From contig CALXOD010000035.1 in NCBI GenBank assembly GCA_944389925.1, forward strand, positions 1 to 36,207: 36,207 nucleotides of DNA. Reading direction: 5' to 3'. Source of the DNA: an uncultured Victivallaceae bacterium (GTDB lineage Bacteria > Verrucomicrobiota > Lentisphaeria > Victivallales > Victivallaceae). Below the pieces are notes generated by a model, which worked only from the letters and a program-made list of their open reading frames with translations, ran no database searches and was not told the DNA's origin. Both the position numbers and the translations under genes were made by a program. Below, piece by piece: positions 19,465-34,907 of this stretch; position 1 is the first letter of the stretch, and every line of letters starts with the position of its first letter.

Positions 19465-21777
19465 TTAACGCTTTTCCGGACGGCAGAAAGCACAGGAGAA
19501 TACACATTGCTCGAATGTGCAGGGGCGAATTTTCTCGATCTGCGGCAGCTGCCGTAATGCCGCCGCCAGGTTTTCCGGTGTAATCTCCCGGGGACAGGGA
19601 ACGTCCAACTTCCATCCGGTATAGCGGCTTCCCTCGGAACCGACCAGGCTGTACCGCTTGGCCCAGTTGCAGCGATTCACATCCAGTTTCCGGTAATGCT
19701 GCGGAACGCCGTCGACCGCCACCCGGATTTCTTCAGCAAACGCTGCCGTCGGACATTGTTCGAAACAATGTCCGTCGCACCCTTCGCAAAAAGCCGTAAT
19801 CGTATTCGAAAGAACCGGATCCGGCGTCAGTTCGGCATCGGTCACAATCGCTATATAGCGAACGTTGTTCCCGTAACGCGGATTCACCACCGAGCCGTTG
19901 AAGGCAATCGTCCCCAGACCAGCGGCCACAGCAGCAAAGGTGTTGCAGAAAAAGTCCGGCATCTCCCCCCGGGGATTCATCGACACCGATCCCGTTCCTG
20001 TAAGATCCGTCGTGCAGACCGCACAGAATCCGGCCCGTTCCAGCAGCCCCATCAGTTTCCAGGCTAATACCCGCAGCCGCCAGATACATTCGTACTGTGC
20101 GAAAACATACGGTCCCACCGCTTCCGCCGGTGTGCGCGCAACAATATCCACATTCCCCGCCGGCAACGGCAATCCGATCACTATCACCGACTTCGCCCCC
20201 GGAAGAAAATCCTCCGGTCCCGTCACCCGGCGTCGGACGACCGTCACTTCCGGATCATACGGCTTATAAATATCCTCCGCCTTGTTGCGAACTACGATCT
20301 CCTCTTCTCCATCATAATGCGGCCGGAGCATCGGCACTACCGCTTCCAGACGTTCGGCGTTGGAAACTCCGAACAGATCGCATTCCATGCGTTCCATCTC
20401 CAGTTGCAGCCGCCGCTTGAGCGTCTCCGGAGCAGCAGCAACACGGGATTCTGTCCAATCCCATCCAGTCTCCGGCAGCGGTGCTTCGGTCAAAAATGTG
20501 GCCGTCAGCAGTTCCCGATCCTCCGGCATGCCCTGCCTCAGTTTCGCACGCAACGTTTCTTCCGGAAACTCCAGGAACTGGCAAGAGGAATACCCCAGAG
20601 ACTCCAGCAGCCGCACCATATCGTACCCGGCCTGAGCCGCCAACGGCTCCCAGAATGTGACAAACTGATGTGTATTGGCCTGCGCTTCTCCGGTAACAGT
20701 ATGCAGCGAACGATGACGGCAGGCGACCAGAGTAACCGCCGTACGACTGCGCGGCAGGATGGACTCCAATTCAATCCCCATCTCCCGTTGCAGCCGTTCC
20801 GCAGATGAGACCACCACATGGTCCACTCCCCAGTCGGCAGCCATGCTGCGGAGTTTCTCAAAAACCCCGCGATGCCACGACTGCACTTCGGGATTCGGCA
20901 GAAAATGCCGCAACCGCCGCGGCGCATTGGTATAATCCCTTTCCCAGGTACGCAGTTCCCGGGGGACGCAATAGCGCAAGCACGATCCCATTTCTCCGCC
21001 GCGGCGCGCATGCCTGCGGGTTTCGGCCATGATCACTTCCTCATCCACATGCTCCGGAATCGGCAGATCCAAATCCAGATCAAAATGTTCTCCCCAGGCG
21101 CAACGCCACAGATTCTTGTCGGCATAACGGTATTCCTTGTCTTCGATCCGTACCGTTTTGTAACCGTTCAACTCCTTCGAAAGCGCTCCGGAGCGGCACT
21201 CCTTCCGGCAAAGCATGCAGCGGTCGCACACGCTACCGGGTTCCAGCAACGGCGACGGCGTCAGTACCGCATCGGTAATCACTGTAACATATCGTACCCG
21301 CGCTCCGAATTCCGGCGTAATGGCCAGGCCATTGTAACCGAATTCCGCCAATCCCGCGGCCACCGCGCAATGCATATGCGACACATCCGGCGCAAACTGC
21401 TCCTGCAAATCCCGATAGCCGCGGTAACGCCAGATATTCGATGAAGCAATGCCGACAGCACGGTACCCCATCTTTTCCAGAAACATCGCCATTCGGTAGG
21501 ACAGATCATCCAGACGCCAATTAATGTGGTATTGAATCACATAAGGCCCGATCTCCTGCGGGTGCTGCAGTCCGCCACGTTCGATAGCCGCATCCGGATG
21601 ATGCAGCCCCAGCACGAGAACGGAACGCGCCTCCGGCAGAATTCCCTGCGGACTCATCATCAGCGGCGCCCCGGAGAACCGTTCGATATTCGCCACGCCG
21701 ACCAGATCCGCCCGCAACGTCTGCACTGCATACTCTTTAACTGCCTGCGTATCCTGATTGTCCACTGAATACCACAT
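19465..21777 (-). CDS. Tandem QueG-like (epoxyqueuosine reductase-like) iron-sulfur protein
   Basis: A 770-residue protein built from repeats of the N-terminal part of the epoxyqueuosine reductase/reductive dehalogenase-like family, whose members use cobalamin and 4Fe-4S clusters. Copy 1 (~20-200) reads DLVGVANIERF, ARSVLVLGLHHP, GPYVIQYHINWRLDDLSYRMAMFLEKMGYRA, CAVAAGLAEFGYNG and VRYVTVITDAVLTPSPLLE. It ends in a 4-Cys cluster (C184, C187, C190, C194). Copy 2 (~480-680) repeats the same order (AKSVIVIGLPLP, GPYVFAQY, AAVAAGLGTIAFNG, VRYIAIVTDAELTPDPVL) and ends in CEGCDGHCFEQC (664-676). Between them a part-copy (SRTAVTLVACRH...DMVRLLESLGYSS) lacks the cluster. Extra Cys lie at the C-terminus (CVFSCAFC). 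The canonical C-terminal HEAT-repeat part of QueG is absent, so queuosine is not the likely substrate. AGGAG 7 bp before ATG 21777 fixes the start. Confidence 0.75.
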   Translation of the reverse strand: MWYSVDNQDTQAVKEYAVQTLRADLVGVANIERFSGAPLMMSPQGILPEARSVLVLGLHHPDAAIERGGLQHPQEIGPYVIQYHINWRLDDLSYRMAMFLEKMGYRAVGIASSNIWRYRGYRDLQEQFAPDVSHMHCAVAAGLAEFGYNGLAITPEFGARVRYVTVITDAVLTPSPLLEPGSVCDRCMLCRKECRSGALSKELNGYKTVRIEDKEYRYADKNLWRCAWGEHFDLDLDLPIPEHVDEEVIMAETRRHARRGGEMGSCLRYCVPRELRTWERDYTNAPRRLRHFLPNPEVQSWHRGVFEKLRSMAADWGVDHVVVSSAERLQREMGIELESILPRSRTAVTLVACRHRSLHTVTGEAQANTHQFVTFWEPLAAQAGYDMVRLLESLGYSSCQFLEFPEETLRAKLRQGMPEDRELLTATFLTEAPLPETGWDWTESRVAAAPETLKRRLQLEMERMECDLFGVSNAERLEAVVPMLRPHYDGEEEIVVRNKAEDIYKPYDPEVTVVRRRVTGPEDFLPGAKSVIVIGLPLPAGNVDIVARTPAEAVGPYVFAQYECIWRLRVLAWKLMGLLERAGFCAVCTTDLTGTGSVSMNPRGEMPDFFCNTFAAVAAGLGTIAFNGSVVNPRYGNNVRYIAIVTDAELTPDPVLSNTITAFCEGCDGHCFEQCPTAAFAEEIRVAVDGVPQHYRKLDVNRCNWAKRYSLVGSEGSRYTGWKLDVPCPREITPENLAAALRQLPQIEKIRPCTFEQCVFSCAFCRPEKR

Positions 21778-21802
21778 GCTCTGTCTCCTTTTGAGAATAT
21801 TA

Positions 21803-21854
21803 TTCATAAACAATGAACCTTATTCATTATACATGAATTTTTCTCAAAAGGCAA
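21803..21854 (-). promoter_or_regulatory. Promoter with two phased palindromic operators before the QueG-like gene
   Basis: On the minus strand, TTGCCT (21849-21854), a 17-bp spacer and a perfect TATAAT (21826-21831) form a strong promoter. Two identical-arm palindromes TTCAT-N5-ATGAA sit at 21823-21837, covering the -10, and at 21803-21817, just past the expected start. Their centres are exactly 20 bp apart, about two helical turns, so two dimers could bind the same face of the DNA and repress. Confidence 0.7.
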
Positions 21855-21875: not shown

Positions 21876-21909
21876 GAAAAAACTTCAACAGATTGGAAAA
21901 GTTTTTTTC
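21876..21909 (-). terminator. Weak AT-rich hairpin after the LacI gene
   Basis: On the minus strand, GAAAAAAACTT at the stop codon can pair with AAGTTTTTTC about 13 nt later. The stem is AT-rich and includes the stop codon, so it is only a possible terminator. Confidence 0.3.
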
Positions 21910-22966
21910 ACGAATTGACCGGACGGTCCGGGGCCGTTCCACTGGAGGCGCGGATCAGCAGCAGATCCGGCGTGAACTCCTTCCGATATTCGGAAGCGAC
22001 GTCCTCCACCGTACAGCGTTTCTCCACCAACCTGATCATCATGCGGGCGGCCAGATACCCCCGCTCAAAATTCCGACTCTGCAGGGCCGTAACTGGAATC
22101 TGTGCCCAACGGGTCAATTCGGTGTCACTGCCGGCCACCACACTGTAATCCCGGGGAATGTGTCGTCCATGCCGCAGCAAGGTCTGCATAAAACCAGCGC
22201 ATACCTGATCATTGGCCACCAGCGCGGTGCAGCCGGCGCATTCCGGATGAAAGAGCGCCATTTCCCCGATCTTCTCGCCGCGGGCAAATTCATCCTGCCC
22301 GGCAAAACGGGGAGTAAACACGATTTCCAGCACTCCCCCCGCCTCCTCCCGGGCGGCCAGCCACTCCGTCCGCCGCCGCGGATTGGAGCAGGGAATCAGA
22401 ACTTTCCGATGACCGTTATGCTGCAGATAGCGGAAAATCTCGCCGCCGCTGCGAATGAAATCGCTGTCAAGCTGAAAAACATCCGGATCCTCGCAATGCC
22501 CGATCACCGTGATCGGAATCCCCAGAGACCGCAAGGTGGAACCGGTACTCCCCAGCATTCCGGCGATGATCAAAGAATCCACATTGCGCTGCCGCAGTCG
22601 GGACGGCATGACAAACCGCGCCACGGAGGTCAAATCAAAACGGCTGACGCTGCAGCGGTACTCAAATTCCGCGCAGGCCGCTTCAATCCCGGCTAGGATC
22701 AGGCTGTAGTAACTATTCGCCAGTCCCAGCGTCGCCGAAGAGGAAACCAGATAGCCCAGCTGCCGGGTACGGCTGGTGCTGAGTGCCCGCGCCTGCGGCA
22801 GGGGTTCGTAATGGTGTTCCTCGATGATCTTCCGGACCCGTTCGAAAGTCTTCGGATTGACCCGCCGCTTCGGATCGTTGTTGATGACCTCGGAAACGGT
22901 GGCTTTGGACACGCCCGCAAGGGCGGCGATATCATTAATGGTGATACGTTTGGCAGGTTCCATCAT
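21908..22966 (-). CDS. LacI-family transcriptional regulator
   Basis: A 352-residue repressor. The N-terminal LacI helix-turn-helix is textbook: ITINDIAALAGVSKATVSEVINND at ~8-31, with the hinge helix around LSTSRTRQLGYL. The rest is the periplasmic-binding-protein-like sensor (FDLTSV, IIAGM, ITVIGHCEDPDVFQLDSDF, GHRKVLIPCS, TALVANDQVCAGFMQTLLRHGRHIPRDYSVVAG). It would bind a sugar and leave AACCG-type operators. Its own promoter carries such a site between -35 and -10. It is the third gene after a pseudopilin and a secreted heparinase II/III on the same strand, and is the likely local controller of both. Its ligand is presumably a polysaccharide breakdown product (inference). Confidence 0.92.
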   Translation of the reverse strand: MMEPAKRITINDIAALAGVSKATVSEVINNDPKRRVNPKTFERVRKIIEEHHYEPLPQARALSTSRTRQLGYLVSSSATLGLANSYYSLILAGIEAACAEFEYRCSVSRFDLTSVARFVMPSRLRQRNVDSLIIAGMLGSTGSTLRSLGIPITVIGHCEDPDVFQLDSDFIRSGGEIFRYLQHNGHRKVLIPCSNPRRRTEWLAAREEAGGVLEIVFTPRFAGQDEFARGEKIGEMALFHPECAGCTALVANDQVCAGFMQTLLRHGRHIPRDYSVVAGSDTELTRWAQIPVTALQSRNFERGYLAARMMIRLVEKRCTVEDVASEYRKEFTPDLLLIRASSGTAPDRPVNS

Positions 22967-23008: not shown

Positions 23009-23037
23009 AATATACCGTTTTGAACCGTTTTTGTCAA
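23009..23037 (-). promoter_or_regulatory. Promoter of the LacI gene with an operator in the spacer
   Basis: On the minus strand, a perfect TTGACA (23032-23037), 17 bp and TATATT (23009-23014). The spacer is AAAACGGTTCAAAACGG, whose opposite strand reads GAACCGTTTT (23022-23031), 8 of 10 matches to GAACCGGTTC. This fits autorepression. The -35 overlaps the stop codon of the heparinase gene. Confidence 0.75.
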
Positions 23038-25532
23038 TGGCGGGACTTGAACACGGGCATATCGATCCATACCCGCATGGCTCCCTGCACCGTTTCGGAA
23101 ATTCCCGGCAGATGGATCCACCACATGCGGTTGCCGGTCCCCGGACGCAACGGCAGCGGAGATTCCAGCTCCAGCCGGATCAGATTGCCGAGCGCTTCCT
23201 GACGCCTTACTTCGGCGCCGAATCCGCTGCCGTCCCCCAATTCCGTATAAATCCAACACCCGGCCAATGGCGGCAGCATTCCCGGTGGAGACTGCACATA
23301 AAGTTCTGCCGGAAAAAGCTCCCTCGCGGCATAAGCCGTATCCGGTCGTCGCCGGGGATCGACCGGAGGCAACGCGGAGACAAGCCGCATGGAAACGGCC
23401 CCCTGTACATCAAGTCCGTCCGCCTGAATACGCCCGTTACCGCGGACATAGCCCCAGCCCGGAGTACCGTCCGGCTCCAGATGCAGTACCGCAAAACGAC
23501 CGGAAAACGCCACCCCTTCCACCTGTCGCACCTCCTGGTCCGGACTGCTGTAGACAATGTCGCAGCCGCGGCGGGTGCGAATGACGGCGGCAATCGTTTC
23601 CCCGTTACGGAACCAGTCAACGCCGGAAATTTCCGGCCCGGCATCCGGCCCGACAATTTCATAGACTGCGCCGAAGATCGTCGCTCCGCTGCTTGCCGGT
23701 ACATGGCGGGTCAAATGATGACCGCGGATTTCCCCGAAAGCGCGGCGGGACTTTTCTTTCTCCGTCTGGAATTTATACCGGCGCAGACTGGGGGCCGTGG
23801 TAAAATAGTTGCTTCCGCCGGGCTGGGGATTCAGGAAAAAACGCGTGCGCACGCCGCTTGCGGCGCCAGCGAACTCCCCGGCCAGCGGCTGGCGGCCGTC
23901 GACGCTGACGACATCCCGAAAAAAGTTAAGATAGACGTTGTAATCCTTGCCCCCTCTGTCGCCGAGCAGATCGCGCAAAGTGCCCGGATGCAGATGCGGC
24001 GTCACGGAAAGTTTCAACTCGCAGGCCTCGTTTTCACTTTGCAGCAGATAGGACTCATGGATCTCCCCGCCGGCCAGAAAAAAGAAATCCACCGTATAGC
24101 CGTCGTCGGCGCCGGACGGAATTTGCACCACCATCCGGCGTCGCTCCCGGACGCCGTTGAAATCCGGTCCGGGCGCGGCGGCCTCCACCAGCTGCAGTCG
24201 GTGATCGCTACCGCTGCCGTCCTCATAGGCCAGCAGCCGGGCACGACTGCGCCGCCGGGCCTGCAGCGAATACGGTTCCACCCGGCGATCCCAGACCATG
24301 GCAGTGTTGTGATAACGGGCGGAGTGAAAAAAGTATTTGTGCCACGAACTGAAACCATCCCGATACGCCGCGTATCCGGCATCCGGCAGCTGGTCGCTGT
24401 TTTCTCCCCAGAGCTGAAGCGACAGGCTGTCCATATGCTGATGCCCGCCACAATAAGGACCGCCGAACACCACCGGTGGAAACGCCAGATAAACTTCACG
24501 CAATCCACTCCCCTTCCCGTGACGCAGGGAAAAAAGTCCGAATACGTTCAATTCCAGATTATTCTCCCGCGCCACCGGACGTTCGTCCCGACCGGGTTGC
24601 GGCGAGCAATGGGTATCCCCCAACGGCAAAAGCCGCCCGTCCGGATAACGCAGTTGTCCGATCGCCGACATGGCCCGGTCGTAAGGCGGCCAGCGACGGC
24701 GGAAAAAATCGGGCGTACCGTCCAGTTTCACGCCATCGGTAATCTCCGTGTATCCGGGAAGATCACGAAACTGCTCGAAATTGTATAGTGCCCAGCGAAG
24801 GTGATTCGTCACCTGCAACTGATAGGAGGTGGAAAAATCGCAATACATCCCATCCTCCATGAACATGTTCCGGGAAAGAAACCGGTCTGCGAAACGTATC
24901 CATTCCCGGATCAACTCCGGCGATTGAAGCACCAGCGCGGTCCCGCTGCCGCTCTGAATGGCATGCGGCATCATGTTATGGATTTCCGTCGTCTCCGCCA
25001 GACGCCGGAGCAACACATACGAAGTCCGGGCGAACCAGTTTTCAATCACCTCCCGGGCGTCGGGCGCCAGTTTCGCCCATGTCGGAGAGTCGTACAGAAG
25101 GTCATAGGCGTATACGCATGGGGAGATGGTTCTTCCGGAATTGGTAAATTCAAGCGAAAACTCCCGGCATCCGGCGGTTTTCCGGGCGATGATCTCCATC
25201 ATTCGCAGCGCCCGTTCCGCATAATCCCCCTGCTCCCCGTCGCGACAGGCATAGGCGAAAAGATTAATCAGCTCCTCATAATGCCCGGCCCGCTGGTTGA
25301 CGTAACGGATAGAAGCGGCGGCGGTCGCGACTTCGGCCAGGAGTTCCGGGAGCGGCTGAGCCGCCGCGCGCCGGAATTCCTTCTCCAGCCGTTTCGCAGT
25401 ATTCCCTGGAATAGAATCTAGATTCAACTGCTCTTCCGGATGCCGGAGCACCGGGTGAGCCACGCGGGCACTCGGCAGAGGCGTGGCAACGACGTTCAGC
25501 CCAAGCAGAAGGAGCAACAGGATGCGTTTCAT
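23034..25532 (-). CDS. Secreted heparinase II/III-family polysaccharide lyase
   Basis: An 832-residue exported protein. The signal peptide is MKRILLLLLLGLNVVATPLP. An alpha-helical toroid (~60-330) contains HNMMPHAIQSG, a motif with the catalytic-type Asn/His pair. It is followed by the heparinase II/III beta-sandwich beginning FPPVVFGGPYCGGHQHMDSLSLQLWG, where the His-Gln-His-x-Asp group is the usual metal or catalytic site, then GYAAYRDGFSSWHKYFFHSARYHNTAMVWD. A C-terminal ~130 residues form a further sandwich (WIYTELGDGSGFGAE...). Enzymes of this family cut uronic-acid polysaccharides by beta-elimination; heparin, heparan, alginate or another uronate cannot be told apart here. ATG 25532 is preferred because it begins the signal peptide after AAAGG. 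It lies 28 bp after the pseudopilin gene and ends over the LacI promoter. Confidence 0.82.
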   Translation of the reverse strand: MKRILLLLLLGLNVVATPLPSARVAHPVLRHPEEQLNLDSIPGNTAKRLEKEFRRAAAQPLPELLAEVATAAASIRYVNQRAGHYEELINLFAYACRDGEQGDYAERALRMMEIIARKTAGCREFSLEFTNSGRTISPCVYAYDLLYDSPTWAKLAPDAREVIENWFARTSYVLLRRLAETTEIHNMMPHAIQSGSGTALVLQSPELIREWIRFADRFLSRNMFMEDGMYCDFSTSYQLQVTNHLRWALYNFEQFRDLPGYTEITDGVKLDGTPDFFRRRWPPYDRAMSAIGQLRYPDGRLLPLGDTHCSPQPGRDERPVARENNLELNVFGLFSLRHGKGSGLREVYLAFPPVVFGGPYCGGHQHMDSLSLQLWGENSDQLPDAGYAAYRDGFSSWHKYFFHSARYHNTAMVWDRRVEPYSLQARRRSRARLLAYEDGSGSDHRLQLVEAAAPGPDFNGVRERRRMVVQIPSGADDGYTVDFFFLAGGEIHESYLLQSENEACELKLSVTPHLHPGTLRDLLGDRGGKDYNVYLNFFRDVVSVDGRQPLAGEFAGAASGVRTRFFLNPQPGGSNYFTTAPSLRRYKFQTEKEKSRRAFGEIRGHHLTRHVPASSGATIFGAVYEIVGPDAGPEISGVDWFRNGETIAAVIRTRRGCDIVYSSPDQEVRQVEGVAFSGRFAVLHLEPDGTPGWGYVRGNGRIQADGLDVQGAVSMRLVSALPPVDPRRRPDTAYAARELFPAELYVQSPPGMLPPLAGCWIYTELGDGSGFGAEVRRQEALGNLIRLELESPLPLRPGTGNRMWWIHLPGISETVQGAMRVWIDMPVFKSRH

Positions 25533-25560
25533 GGAAAAACCTTTTCTGAATGAAATCATT

Positions 25561-26331
25561 TCAATATAACGCACCGGTTACAATGGTGCAATCGCCGACC
25601 GTTCCCATGGCAAACGTAAAGTCCGTTTTGAAAACGGTCACTACCGTCTGTGTCCCGGAGGCCGTGGGAATGCCCAGATTCCCGGCAACGATCTCCCGCG
25701 GCGAAAACGAACCGACGTGCCCGTCAAGAAATAACAGATTGGCGCGACGATTGTGCAACGGGAAAACCCGGGAATAGGAATTGGGATTGGCTCCGCCGGC
25801 CGAAACGTAGTGCATCCGGGTGCAGGAAAAACCGTTCATCCCGGGATCACTCGGCAGATATCCGGTGTCCGCCAGAAGAAACACCCGGGAGAAACCGGCC
25901 TTCGCCACTGTCGCCGCCTTGAGTGAAAAGGACGGCAGTCCGGAAAAGTTGGTATAGCTGCCGCCATACGCATTCGCCGGCGTCCGCACCTTGCGCACCT
26001 GCTGCTGAACCGGGCAGAAGATACTCTGGTCGAAAATATTGCCTGAGGTGTTATACGTCGGAATGTATTTCCCGTATCCCAGTGCCGCCGCCCAGTTGGC
26101 GCCGGAGGCGGTATAGGCGGACGAGGCGGAATTATTATTGGTCCACTGCTGTTCGTGGTCTCCCAGATACAACATGGCGTAGACGCTGACATTCTTCAGA
26201 TTGCCGACGCACTTGATCCCCATGGCGCTGTTGCGGGCACGGTTCAAAGCCGGCGACAACATAGAAGCCAGAATCGCGATGATGGCGATCACCACCAAGA
26301 GTTCGATCAGCGTGAAAACCCTTCTCCGCAT
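25561..26331 (-). CDS. Pseudopilin-like protein (H-X9-DG type), cassette A
   Basis: A 256-residue member of the type II secretion/type IV pilus-like family typical of Lentisphaerota and Planctomycetota. A short basic leader MRRRV is followed by [17 protein letters not shown], the type IV prepilin helix with the conserved Glu at +5. The residue before Phe is Val rather than the Gly that prepilin peptidase normally needs. The globular part ends with H-X9-DG ([14 protein letters not shown]) and has C-terminal strands. It is the first gene of cassette A and is followed by the heparinase (28 bp) and the LacI gene. Its promoter carries LacI-type operators. A role in display or transport on the cell surface is inferred; no experiment on this subfamily is known to me. 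Confidence 0.88.
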
Positions 26332-26370: not shown

Positions 26371-26384
26371 TTGAACCGGTTCGA
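26371..26384. promoter_or_regulatory. LacI-type operator 1 (proximal)
   Basis: TTGAACCGGTTCGA contains a perfect GAACCGGTTC palindrome with the central CG step typical of LacI-family sites. It lies in the leader about 40 bp before the pseudopilin start. Confidence 0.65.
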
Positions 26385-26428
26385 TAATATACTCTTTAAT
26401 TATTTGCGTTATTTTAAAAATGCTTTTT

Positions 26429-26442
26429 TCGAACCGGTTCGA
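26429..26442. promoter_or_regulatory. LacI-type operator 2 (perfect 14-bp palindrome)
   Basis: TCGAACCGGTTCGA is a perfect 14-bp palindrome located just downstream of the -10. Its centre is 58 bp from operator 1 and ~34 bp from the spacer operator, so DNA looping or cooperative binding is possible. Confidence 0.7.
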
Positions 26443-26454
26443 TTTTTTTGTTTA

Positions 26455-26483
26455 ATTATACTTCAAAACGGTTTCGATGTCAA
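26455..26483 (-). promoter_or_regulatory. Consensus promoter of cassette A with operator in spacer
   Basis: On the minus strand, perfect TTGACA (26478-26483), 17 bp and perfect TATAAT (26455-26460). The spacer TCGAAACCGTTTTGAAG holds an AAACCGTTTT operator-like element, the same architecture as the LacI gene's own promoter. Transcription would start near 26448, within operator 2 or next to it. Confidence 0.8.
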
Positions 26484-30410: not shown

Positions 30411-32324
30411 TTATTTCAGACGAATCCGATACAATCCGGATTGAGAGCCGAAATAAACCGTCCCGTCCGGTGCCATATATTCAGCGTGGGTCCCGTGCAG
30501 ACTGTTGACAAATTTCGCCTCGATTTCCGGAGAAGAAAAGAGTTTTGTCACTTTTTCTCCGGCAATGTCCACTTCATACAGACCATCTCCGAGCAACAGA
30601 TACGCGCGATCCCCCAGAACGGGCGCACTTCCGAGCGGACGGAGACCGGAACGCCGGGGCAGTTCAATCGTCTTTTCGATCGTCCGCCTGGCGGTGTCGA
30701 CCACCACCACTTTGCGCGATGTCACACCGACCGTCCAGAACCGGGACCCACCGAGCGGGTAAGCTCCGAGATAATACTTTTCGCCCTTCAGCGGCGCCGC
30801 GTCCCAAACCACTTTCTTCGTCGCGGGGTCCCACAGGAAGATTTTGGCTTCCCGGGCGGTCGGGATCGCACTGGTACCGCCGTTGATGTCGGATACACCG
30901 AAGATCAAACCGTCCGGAGTGGCGGCCAGAGCCCGCAGACTCTGCTGATCCACTACATTCCGATAAAATCGGTAGGTGTCATTTTCCGGATCCACGACCA
31001 CGATGCCGCCGCCGAGATGTCCTTTGATCGGCATGGTCGGGCCGTACAGTTTACCGTCCGGGCCCGGAATCAGCATAAACACCCGTTCCTGCTGTTCTTT
31101 TCCGGAAAGGCGCACCACTTTTTTGAATTTATCGTGATTTTTATCCATGCGGTCAATGCTGCCCCCGACATAACTGGACAGGTAAACCCGATCCGGATAT
31201 TCATGAGCCCAATAAATCTGGGTACTGCCGCTGGTGCGTTTCCCGTAGTTGGTATATTCCGGTTTCGCCTCCCCGTGCGTAAAGGACGCCAGAGCCGCAG
31301 GAGAAAAACTGCCAACCCAGATCGTTCCGTTCAGTCCGGGACAAATAGAGTAAACCAGCGGAGAAAATGCCGGGAAATCCGTAGGAATTTCCTCTATTTT
31401 TCCAGTAGCCGGGTTGCTCAGCGACAGCACCCCTTCGGAATCAACCGACAGCAGCTGCCGCCCGTCCGCCAGCGTGAAGTTCCCAGGGAAGGTGTAAGGT
31501 TTGTCGAATTCCAGCGCCGGAAGGGCGTCTACCGGTTCAACCCGGTCCGGAAAACAGCGGAACACTTCCTTGCCGTACTGGGCGTAAACCTGACCGTCCG
31601 TCCCCCGATAGATGCGACCTTTGATCGTGGATTTTGCAAATTTCTCCGGCAGCAGCTGGCGGCTGGCCCCCGACACAGGATCATAACAGAAAAGTTCGGG
31701 ATGATGCAAGCCGACCGTAAAATAGATCTTCCCATCCTTGTCGGACAGCAGATACAGCACATATTTCTGCCGGGCATCAGAACTGAGCCGTTTCGTGCCG
31801 CCACTCTTGCCGGTTTCCGGATTGAACCATGCCAGCTGCACTTCGGGATAAGTTCCAACGAAAATCGTTCCGTCCGGCGCAATATCGCCGGTCACCGGCA
31901 TGAAATAATCACCACGCACCGGCAACGGGATCTCCCGCTGTTTTCCGGTCGCCGGATCATATTCCACAAGCAACGCATTGGCATTCTTATCCTTCGCCAG
32001 AGTATTTTTGACCAGAGCATAAGCTTTCCCATTGGGATGAACGCGCAGCAACTGCAGGTGTGTGCCATATTTGGCCAGATCGACCCAGGTTGTTTTGCCG
32101 CTCTTGCAGTCAATACCGAGAATCCCGCGCCGTTCCGGCAGCATCACCCGGGCCCAAGCGGTTTCGGATTGATCCGCACCGCGCGTGTAGCCGGCGACGA
32201 TCAACTCACCGCTGCGAACCGGATTACCCAACGACTCCTGTTCCACCGCCGGAGCCGTCGGCAGCATGCCCAGCAGCAACGGCAGCAGCAACAACCGTTT
32301 TTTCCCTGAAACCCTCACAATCAT
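30411..32324 (-). CDS. Secreted beta-propeller protein (cassette B)
   Basis: A 637-residue exported protein. The signal peptide runs through LLLLPLLLGMLPTAPAVE. The rest is a repeat pattern typical of WD40/PQQ/NHL-like beta-propellers: blades end in DPATGK, NPETGK, DPVSGA, NPATGK, DPENDT and DPATKK, each preceded by a hydrophobic strand and often by a PDGTIFVG- or PDGLIFGV-type turn. At least six to eight blades can be counted. No catalytic residues are recognisable; such proteins can be lyases, oligosaccharide binders or scaffolds. It is the last gene of cassette B, 29 bp after the second pseudopilin, and is followed by a strong stem-loop. A role in polysaccharide use is inferred from its neighbours. 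Confidence 0.8.
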   Translation of the reverse strand: MIVRVSGKKRLLLLPLLLGMLPTAPAVEQESLGNPVRSGELIVAGYTRGADQSETAWARVMLPERRGILGIDCKSGKTTWVDLAKYGTHLQLLRVHPNGKAYALVKNTLAKDKNANALLVEYDPATGKQREIPLPVRGDYFMPVTGDIAPDGTIFVGTYPEVQLAWFNPETGKSGGTKRLSSDARQKYVLYLLSDKDGKIYFTVGLHHPELFCYDPVSGASRQLLPEKFAKSTIKGRIYRGTDGQVYAQYGKEVFRCFPDRVEPVDALPALEFDKPYTFPGNFTLADGRQLLSVDSEGVLSLSNPATGKIEEIPTDFPAFSPLVYSICPGLNGTIWVGSFSPAALASFTHGEAKPEYTNYGKRTSGSTQIYWAHEYPDRVYLSSYVGGSIDRMDKNHDKFKKVVRLSGKEQQERVFMLIPGPDGKLYGPTMPIKGHLGGGIVVVDPENDTYRFYRNVVDQQSLRALAATPDGLIFGVSDINGGTSAIPTAREAKIFLWDPATKKVVWDAAPLKGEKYYLGAYPLGGSRFWTVGVTSRKVVVVDTARRTIEKTIELPRRSGLRPLGSAPVLGDRAYLLLGDGLYEVDIAGEKVTKLFSSPEIEAKFVNSLHGTHAEYMAPDGTVYFGSQSGLYRIRLK

Positions 32325-32353
32325 GATCCCTTTCTTTAAAAGCTCGACAGGTT

Positions 32354-33097
32354 TTACTTCTGACGATAGTAATAATACTTATACGCATTGGCGGCATTGA
32401 TGTTGGGGCTGGTTTTCCCCGCCTTGACCGCCTGAATGCTCATATTGCTGGCGTGTCCGTCCACCCAGGAAATATTCATTCCCGGTGCATGCCGCAGACT
32501 TTCATACTGCATATAGCATGCCGCAGCCTGCGCCGCACTGGTCACCTCGTCACGCCCATCTGCAATGAGAATCGTCTCCGTCGGCATCTTCACCATATTG
32601 GTTTTCACATAATAGGTTTTCTTTTTCCCCCGATACCCCATACCGTACTGTCCCTGACCGCCGGCCCAGTTGTAACCGTATCCCCCCGCCAGGAAAGGCT
32701 GATCATAAGTCGGAGCCTGGCTACTCGGTGTTACCAGTTCCCGTTTCCACGAAGGACAGAGGAAGACTCCGCGTTCCAACTTGTATTCCTTTTCCGGTTC
32801 TTCATCCAGCGACAATCCGAGATAAGGAGCAAGCGCCGCCTTCCAGCCGCCGAAATTGTAATATTTCTTTTCGGCACCGAAATAGCCGTTCATCACCGGA
32901 TAATAGTCGCTGTCCCCGACATACATGGCGGCAGCGCTGCCCATTTGTTTGAGGTTATTAAGACAGGACACACTGTGCGCTTTGGCACGCGCCTGATTCA
33001 GGGCCGGCAGCAGCATGGCCGCCAGGATGGCGATGATCGCGATCACCACCAGCAGTTCGATCAGGGTGAAGTGAAATCTCCGTTGCCGTGTCTTCAT
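32354..33097 (-). CDS. Pseudopilin-like protein (H-X9-DG type), cassette B second
   Basis: A 247-residue paralogue of the cassette A pseudopilin. Leader MKTRQRRFH, then [17 protein letters not shown] followed by [25 protein letters not shown], which is the highly conserved N-terminal block. The residue before Phe is His, not Gly. The globular domain is Tyr/Gly-rich in the middle ([24 protein letters not shown]) and ends with H-X9-DG ([15 protein letters not shown]). A Cys pair, one after the N-helix (SCLNN) and one in LCPSW, recurs in the other cassette B copy (SCLNN, LLCPSL) and may form a disulphide. GGAGG precedes the ATG. Confidence 0.88.
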
Positions 33098-33126
33098 GAT
33101 TCCATCCTCCGTTGAATGAATTTATT

Positions 33127-33852
33127 TCAATAAATGTCCCAGTGGTCATCCGGATCGCCGGTGGTTCCGCCCTTCGAATAAGGCTGCGTATTGTAAATCG
33201 CCTCGGCCGACAGGGACGGCACGTTCGGGGCGGTAACATGACCATCCATCCAGGCCGTATTGATGTTGTTTCCATGGCGGGAATAGGGGTTGTAGTCCTT
33301 CCGCTCCGCGCGGGTGACATACGAGGCGCCACGCTCATCCGTCTGATCAGTACGAACCGATTCGGTCATCATGATCGTCGCCGAAGGTTTCTTCACCTTG
33401 CTGTCCTTGGTCTTTTCATTGAACAAATGGTAATTGCAGCCGTACGTCACATAATTGAACGTATAGGTGTTCTGCGCATAGCCCTTCTTCTTCACATTAT
33501 TGAACTCTCTGCGGAAAGTTTCCGGCATGCCGTACGTTCCCTGCTTGAGAGAGGGACAGAGCAGCGGCGACACACTGGACAGGTATCCGGGGACAATCAA
33601 CCGATTCGGCCAGTAAATCTTGCCATTCCCGCCGCTCTCAGCGGTATAGTATCTGGGATAAATCCCCTCGGAATCCCCACAATACATGATGACACACGTT
33701 GCCAGCTGCTTGACGTTGTTCAAGCAGCTGATCTGCCGGGCTTTCATCCGAGCTTTGTTCAGCGACGGCAGCAGCATGGACGCCAGGATGGCGATGATCG
33801 CAATCACCACCAGAAGCTCGATCAATGTAAACTGTTTTTGTTTTTTCATCAT
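33127..33852 (-). CDS. Pseudopilin-like protein (H-X9-DG type), cassette B first
   Basis: A 241-residue paralogue. Leader MMKKQKQ, then [17 protein letters not shown] and [39 protein letters not shown]. The residue before Phe is Gln. The C-terminal H-X9-DG is [14 protein letters not shown], and a final DDHWDIY tail follows. The start may be ATG 33852 or 33849; GGAAGGCGG precedes both. It lies 47 bp after the GntR-type regulator and 29 bp before the second pseudopilin, so the three are one transcript unless an unseen promoter exists. Compared with the cassette A copy the globular domain is strongly diverged, suggesting different partners. Confidence 0.88.
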
Positions 33853-33899
33853 TTCCGCCTTCCCTTCATAATTGTTGTGGAAAAATTTATAAATCTGCT

Positions 33900-34907
33900 T
33901 TATAAGGTCAGTCTACCTTCATAATACAGGCTGCGCACCGGGTGATTCGGATCGCGGATCCGATTGTAAATCTCCCAGAACAACGCCCGTCCAATCTCCT
34001 TCCAATCCCCCGCAATGGTCGGGAATCGGTGAAAACTCGGCATCAGAGTCCTTTTCCCGTCCACAGAAAGAATCGGAAAACGAGTCAGATCCACTCCGAC
34101 CTTCTCCATAGTGGCGACGTGCTCCTCCGCCACATGGTCCGAGGTAAAATAGGCCCCCTCGCCTTTGCCGAGGTGCATTTCATCAAGCCAGTCGTAATCC
34201 CACTTGACCGTGCCGCCGGCACGGCGGAATTCCGCTTCAAATACTTCACCGCGCCGCATATAAACCGGTGGAGCTGCGGTAGAAATCGTTACCGTACGAA
34301 CGTTTTTCGACAGAAAAAACGCCACCGCCTGCCGGGCCGCAAAGAATGGATCCAGGTTCACCGTCGAAACCTTCCCGCCGAAGGAGTTGTGAATCAACGT
34401 ACCAACCACCGGCAGCCGGGTATCCAGTTCCGTAAAATAGGCATCATATTCGTTGAGCATCACAATCCCATGCGATCCCTCGCTGGCCGTACGAATCAAT
34501 TCCGTAGTGATTTCACGCCCGCGCACCGGCACTACGAAAAAGTGACAGTCACACTCGTACGCCAGCTCCTGCATCTGCATGAATGCCGTATGGCAAAGCC
34601 CGATCCCACGCTCCGTCACATGGGGTTCCAGAAACACCGTAATGCGCTTGTATTCACGGGCGGACTGCCGCTGCGGCGCCACCAGAAAACCACGACCTTC
34701 CTTACGCAGTGCGCCACTGTCCAGCAAAAATTCAATTCCCCGGAGTGCTGTTCCGTAACTGAGTTGAAATTTCGCAGCCATACGGCGCACCGACGGGATC
34801 CGTGCCCCGACCGGATAAGAACCTGTGGCAATCTGTGCGAAAACATAATCCACCAGTTCCGCTGCCTTGGGAGGTTTGTTCATTGAGCATGTACTCTTTT
34901 TGATCAT
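33900..34907 (-). CDS. GntR-type regulator with LacI-like sugar sensor (AraR-like)
   Basis: A 335-residue regulator. The N-terminal GntR winged helix is clear ([62 protein letters not shown]). Instead of a FadR or HutC effector domain it carries a LacI/periplasmic-binding-like sensor ([63 protein letters not shown], and a late [21 protein letters not shown]), as in AraR of Bacillus. Sugar or oligosaccharide sensing is inferred. The start is uncertain: ATG 34907 has only GAG-type Shine-Dalgarno, and ATG 34883 is an alternative that still keeps the whole helix-turn-helix. It heads cassette B and several TGATC(A) repeats lie around its promoter. Confidence 0.88.

Follow-up and report, generated by a model that had tools for sequence, protein, structure and literature searches.

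How does an uncultured gut bacterium of the Lentisphaeria control a gene string that joins a pilin-like protein to a secreted polysaccharide-cutting enzyme, and does the LacI-type regulator encoded beside them govern both the string and itself? A first-pass annotation of this DNA had proposed that a LacI operator inside the 17-bp spacer of a consensus promoter is used twice, once on the prepilin-lyase operon (cassette A) and once on lacI, with a three-site, loop-capable array on cassette A. Our comparison of promoters, operators and orthologous loci suggests a simpler arrangement as the most likely one, in which the neighbouring LacI-type repressor would keep the pilin-like protein and the secreted enzyme off and limit its own production.

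The prepilin-lyase-lacI locus

The window, meaning the whole 36,207-nucleotide stretch analysed, corresponds to contig C35 in an assembly of 2.80 Mb (source genome G000), and G001 and G002 are congeneric genomes. Three genes follow one another in the order of minus-strand transcription:

25561..26331, minus strand: prepilin-like protein, 256 aa, with a type IV pilin-like N-terminus (PF07963 N_methyl; TIGR02532)
23034..25574, minus strand: heparinase II/III-like polysaccharide lyase, predicted to be secreted (PF07940, E 2e-07)
21908..22966, minus strand: LacI-family repressor, 352 aa (PF00356, E 2.4e-16; PF13377, E 2.4e-12)

The lyase likely starts at an ATG near 25532, where the translated N-terminus is signal-peptide-like, and neither its single sequence nor a three-sequence profile tied it to a solved structure. 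In the LacI protein the helix-turn-helix match to PF00356 exceeds the curated cut-off, as do PF13377 and PF00532 over the periplasmic-binding-protein-like ligand core, and the nearly full-length match in the PDB is CcpA (E 2e-23). The protein stops about a dozen residues past the last core strand, and inspection of the translation, the sole basis here, revealed no Leu-heptad tetramerisation tail at its C-terminus.

Downstream of lacI (19465-21813, minus strand) lies a gene for a 782-aa protein with an NCBIfam match to reductive-dehalogenase/QueG-like proteins, apparently built of two tandem related halves, which is about 92% identical in G001 and G002 and adjoins lacI in both. Upstream of this gene, at about 21800-21850, ATTCAT/ATGAAT repeats flank a TATAAT-like element; they are unlike the LacI palindrome and are possibly a site for a different regulator. 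A second nearby group (30411-34907) comprises a pair of prepilin-like genes, a gene for a 637-aa product that matches Reg_prop weakly, and one for a weak GntR-type helix-turn-helix protein (33900-34907). The prepilin query gave 76 matches in the 2.8 Mb of G000; its congeners gave 57 and 89.

Two promoters and their candidate operators

Both promoters described in the first-pass annotation are present as claimed, and the two palindromes that it placed downstream of the cassette A promoter are exact copies of GAACCGGTTC, here named O1 and O2 (the 14-mers are given as read on the minus strand):

26455..26483, minus strand: promoter of the prepilin-lyase operon (TTGACA 26483-26478, 17-bp spacer 26477-26461, TATAAT 26460-26455)
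26461..26477, minus strand: spacer of that promoter, TCGAAACCGTTTTGAAG, where the operator was claimed; a weak match without conservation in G002
26429..26442, unstranded: O1, TCGAACCGGTTCGA, a perfect 14-bp palindrome with exact GAACCGGTTC at 26431-26440
26371..26384, unstranded: O2, TCGAACCGGTTCAA, in the 5′ UTR, with exact GAACCGGTTC at 26373-26382
23009..23037, minus strand: own promoter of lacI (TTGACA 23037-23032, 17-bp spacer 23031-23015, TATATT 23014-23009)
23015..23031, minus strand: core operator in the lacI spacer, AAAACGGTTCAAAACGG; closest 10-mer GAACCGTTTT, plus strand, 23022-23031

The centre of O1 falls at about +10 to +13 relative to the expected start site, and O2 lies 58 bp further on, centre to centre. 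Within the lacI spacer the match AAAACGGTTC differs from GAACCGGTTC at two positions (8/10), for which the chance per 17-bp spacer is about 0.7% from the window rate and 0.6% from the upstream regions of other LacI genes. The closest 10-mer in the cassette A spacer, AAACCGTTTT, carries 3/10 mismatches (chance about 3-6%), and the orthologous spacer in G002, TCGGCATGATTTTAAGA, has six. A spacer operator on cassette A was rejected on these counts. The proposal that the spacer operator is used twice thus holds only for lacI, where the site has two mismatches and is conserved, because the cassette A match is weak and is destroyed in G002.

Conservation of the sites and of their spacing

The conservation sample consists of one full orthologous locus, in G002, and one contig-end fragment, in G001; a contig scan contributed nothing beyond the two congeneric records and a pair of distant Bacillota. 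G002 holds the whole cassette, with identities of 92% for lacI, 90% for the lyase and 98% for the prepilin, the prepilin ORF there (L061:8927-9841) having a start codon that adds an N-terminal extension of about 50 residues before the pilin-like segment. In G001 the LacI orthologue is 89% identical, and the lyase was not found in this incomplete assembly. Pairwise alignment of the operon promoters of G000 and G002 gave both hexamers and the 17-bp spacing retained (TTGACA-17-TATAAT), O1 identical at 14/14 positions (TCGAACCGGTTCGA), and O2 kept as TCGAACCGATTTAA at a distance from O1 of again exactly 58 bp, while much of the DNA between the two operators has diverged. The distance from the -10 to O1 differs by 3 bp, with the O1 centre at +25 in G000 and +22 in G002, counted from the first -10 base. 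The lacI promoter is identical in G002 from -35 to -10, and in G001, whose contig begins inside the lacI spacer, the part that can be read, the last 12 bases of the spacer and the -10, is conserved. Unlike this spacer operator, the bases downstream of the lacI -10 differ among the congeners. An operator at 8/10 is thus found in the regulator's own promoter and is conserved with its orthologues.

G135 offers a contrast, with a lyase at 48% identity followed by a prepilin gene, and with a GntR-type regulator carrying a periplasmic-binding-protein domain as divergent neighbour of the pair. No close match to GAACCGGTTC occurs in the G135 lyase promoter region; between G000 and G135, lyase and prepilin stay paired and the regulator and its site change together. 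In the same G135 region (L243, G135:C7:73000-88000), TGCAACTG and CAGTTGCA repeats stand one on each side of the intergenic region.

Recognition helix and operator bases

To assign the sites to a protein we used a residue-to-base code from 44 promoter-associated LacI operators of the order. The regular expression for the recognition helix missed no protein, and a few rows may be misread by one position. In this set R22 predicts G at -6 (9/12 against 1/32, p=3e-6) and K/R17 predicts C at -2 (12/15 against 6/29, p=2e-4), p-values that are optimistic because the operators were chosen by palindromicity and include related, phylogenetically non-independent sequences. The same two links, NT-6/AA-20 (R-G) and NT-2/AA-15, were described from independent data by Camas et al. 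(PMC2978694). The specificity residues of the local LacI are K17, A18 and E22 (E. coli LacI numbering), and its CG-centred operators carry C at -2, in line with K17. At position 17 the remaining five LacI proteins of G000 carry I, M, L, V and V, neither K nor R, so the helix code would fit the local LacI and none of these five. E22 occurs in 2/140 LacI proteins, both of them the orthologues at this locus, and its partner base lies outside the code; the base at -6 is C in O1 and T in the lacI spacer site.

Operator position across LacI genes of the order

The starting set was 145 regions upstream of LacI genes, most of them from four genomes of the order and one each from many others; 140 were left once near-duplicates and short ones were removed, and 112 own-promoters with a good sigma-70-like promoter formed the positional test set. 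A CG-centred palindrome had to have at least 3/4 inner pairs and at least 4/6 pairs, with the expectation taken from shuffles. Counting from the first -10 base, palindromes are centred at +15 to +22 in 25/112 promoters against 1.4 expected (shuffle maximum 5); in the -35/-10 spacer they occur in nine of the 112 against 2.9 expected (shuffle maximum 7), L035, L037 and L122 being clear examples. Judged by these counts, a spacer operator is therefore a real but minor option among LacI own-promoters of the order. O1 of cassette A, at +25 (+22 in G002), falls at the downstream margin of the favoured range. The first-pass annotation had also taken operators between -35 and -10 to give the tightest repression, which overstates the case: in E. 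coli Ptrc a proximal operator was found to repress about as well as a core operator (PMC3922697), and the part of PMC7059391 that cites Lanzer and Bujard has repression efficiency set by competition with polymerase.

Alternative explanations

One alternative is that the sites belong to a different regulator, or are structural or chance sequence in an AT-rich 5′ UTR. Pattern searches, on which exclusivity in G000 is judged, found 26 exact copies of GAACCGGTTC in 2.80 Mb and none of the reversed control word. Outside the locus, 22 of the 24 copies lie clearly within longer ORFs and two are ambiguous (C17:50069 and C7:99896), and these 24 include no other close pair; the relaxed 14-mer TYGAACCGNTTYDW has just seven separate sites in G000, two of which belong to this locus. 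One exact copy in a probable 5′ UTR, C17:50069, and an O1-like site upstream of prmA, common to G000 and G001 in a wider 14-mer search, would favour another owner or chance, but O1 and the exact 58-bp spacing are kept in G002, the helix code matches the local LacI alone, and nearly all remaining exact copies are in coding sequence, which makes this the least probable of the explanations considered. The prmA promoters themselves (L220 in G000, L215 in G001) are housekeeping promoters, divergent from guaA, in which AAAACCGGTTCAAG just upstream of a TATATT element is kept in both genomes.

A different doubt concerns autoregulation, since the local LacI might bind the GAACCGGTTC pair while the lacI spacer match is incidental. 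The match is just 8/10, and most autoregulatory LacI palindromes of the order are found at +15 to +22 from the -10, but a coincidence at 0.6-0.7%, conserved in G002 and partly in G001, in a position that other LacI promoters such as L035, L037 and L122 also use, seems unlikely. Only slightly less improbable than a foreign or chance origin is the three-site array, in which LacI would bind cassette A at the spacer as well and loop the DNA between the sites. The presence of AAACCGTTTT in the G000 spacer speaks for it, and 58 bp, the conserved distance between the two operators in G000 and G002, falls within the range of short repressor loops. The array is nevertheless unsupported because the spacer site, with its 3/10 mismatches, is lost in G002 (6 mismatches), and looping is weakened because the LacI lacks, by inspection, a Leu-heptad C-terminal tail. 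Looping at 58 bp would be possible in principle, and the protein gives it no support. In E. coli, repression is periodic at about 11 bp (PMC3922697).

A model for local repression and autoregulation

We therefore favour, with a probability of about 0.75, a model in which the LacI encoded at 21908-22966 would be a dedicated local repressor of the prepilin-lyase-lacI string, acting through O1 and O2 and autoregulated through its own spacer operator. Without ligand, a LacI dimer would occupy O1, which lies immediately past the start site, and prevent initiation or promoter escape; another dimer, on O2 in the 5′ UTR 58 bp beyond O1, may serve as a roadblock or an auxiliary site. The same LacI would bind the weaker, asymmetric operator in its own -35/-10 spacer and so limit its own synthesis. 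The ligand would probably be a saccharide made by the lyase or related to its substrate, so that the oligosaccharide inducer suggested by the first-pass annotation is plausible. The TGA that ends the lyase gene lies within the lacI -35, so read-through from the operon promoter could reach lacI and may add LacI when the operon is on. The earlier proposal of one LacI for operon and regulator alike is supported: G002 retains the sites together with the gene, and they are near-exclusive to the locus and match the helix code. Such wiring would be usual for the family, in which nearly 90% of the regulators studied are local and 72% autoregulated (PMC4052901).

Relation to known systems and significance

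The locus resembles the local autoregulated LacI sugar repressors (PMC4052901; code in PMC2978694) in its LacI helix-turn-helix and periplasmic-binding-protein core, its CG-centred palindromes, the adjacent carbohydrate-active gene and the operator in the regulator's own promoter; it differs in having the rare E22 where R22 is common, and in targets that include a prepilin-like protein. E. coli LacI uses a C-terminal tetramerisation tail, and auxiliary operators accompany lacO1. Like the lac operon, the locus has a proximal operator, some 10-13 bp past the expected start, and another operator close by; here, in contrast, no tetramerisation tail was seen and looping is not expected, and the repressor gene ends the regulated string and carries its own operator. 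lacO1 itself lies at +11 (PMC3922697). The lacI promoter, with its operator between -35 and -10, resembles engineered core-operator promoters of the Lanzer and Bujard line (PA1/04, PN25/04 and PA1lacO-1, among others), to which PMC7059391 and PMC3922697 refer, although its operator is natural and imperfect and serves the regulator gene itself; the target promoter has no conserved one.

On sequence grounds the arrangement is real and conserved, and its wiring belongs to a familiar, ordinary type; a literature search by title found no paper on prepilin-LacI cassettes in Lentisphaeria. More tentatively, and with the odds against it, operator position may be a lineage-wide design variable in Lentisphaeria with large LacI repertoires, mostly in the initially transcribed region and in a minority in the core spacer, regulator and target here using both positions with the same protein to set different thresholds for self and target. 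The locus gives a concrete assignment of regulator, operator and target in a poorly studied gut lineage with dozens of prepilin-like genes per genome, and it links one such gene with a polysaccharide lyase that a sugar-type repressor would control. Operators of the many LacI proteins in these uncultured bacteria would be easier to assign with the positional map of the order and the residue-to-base code recovered from it.
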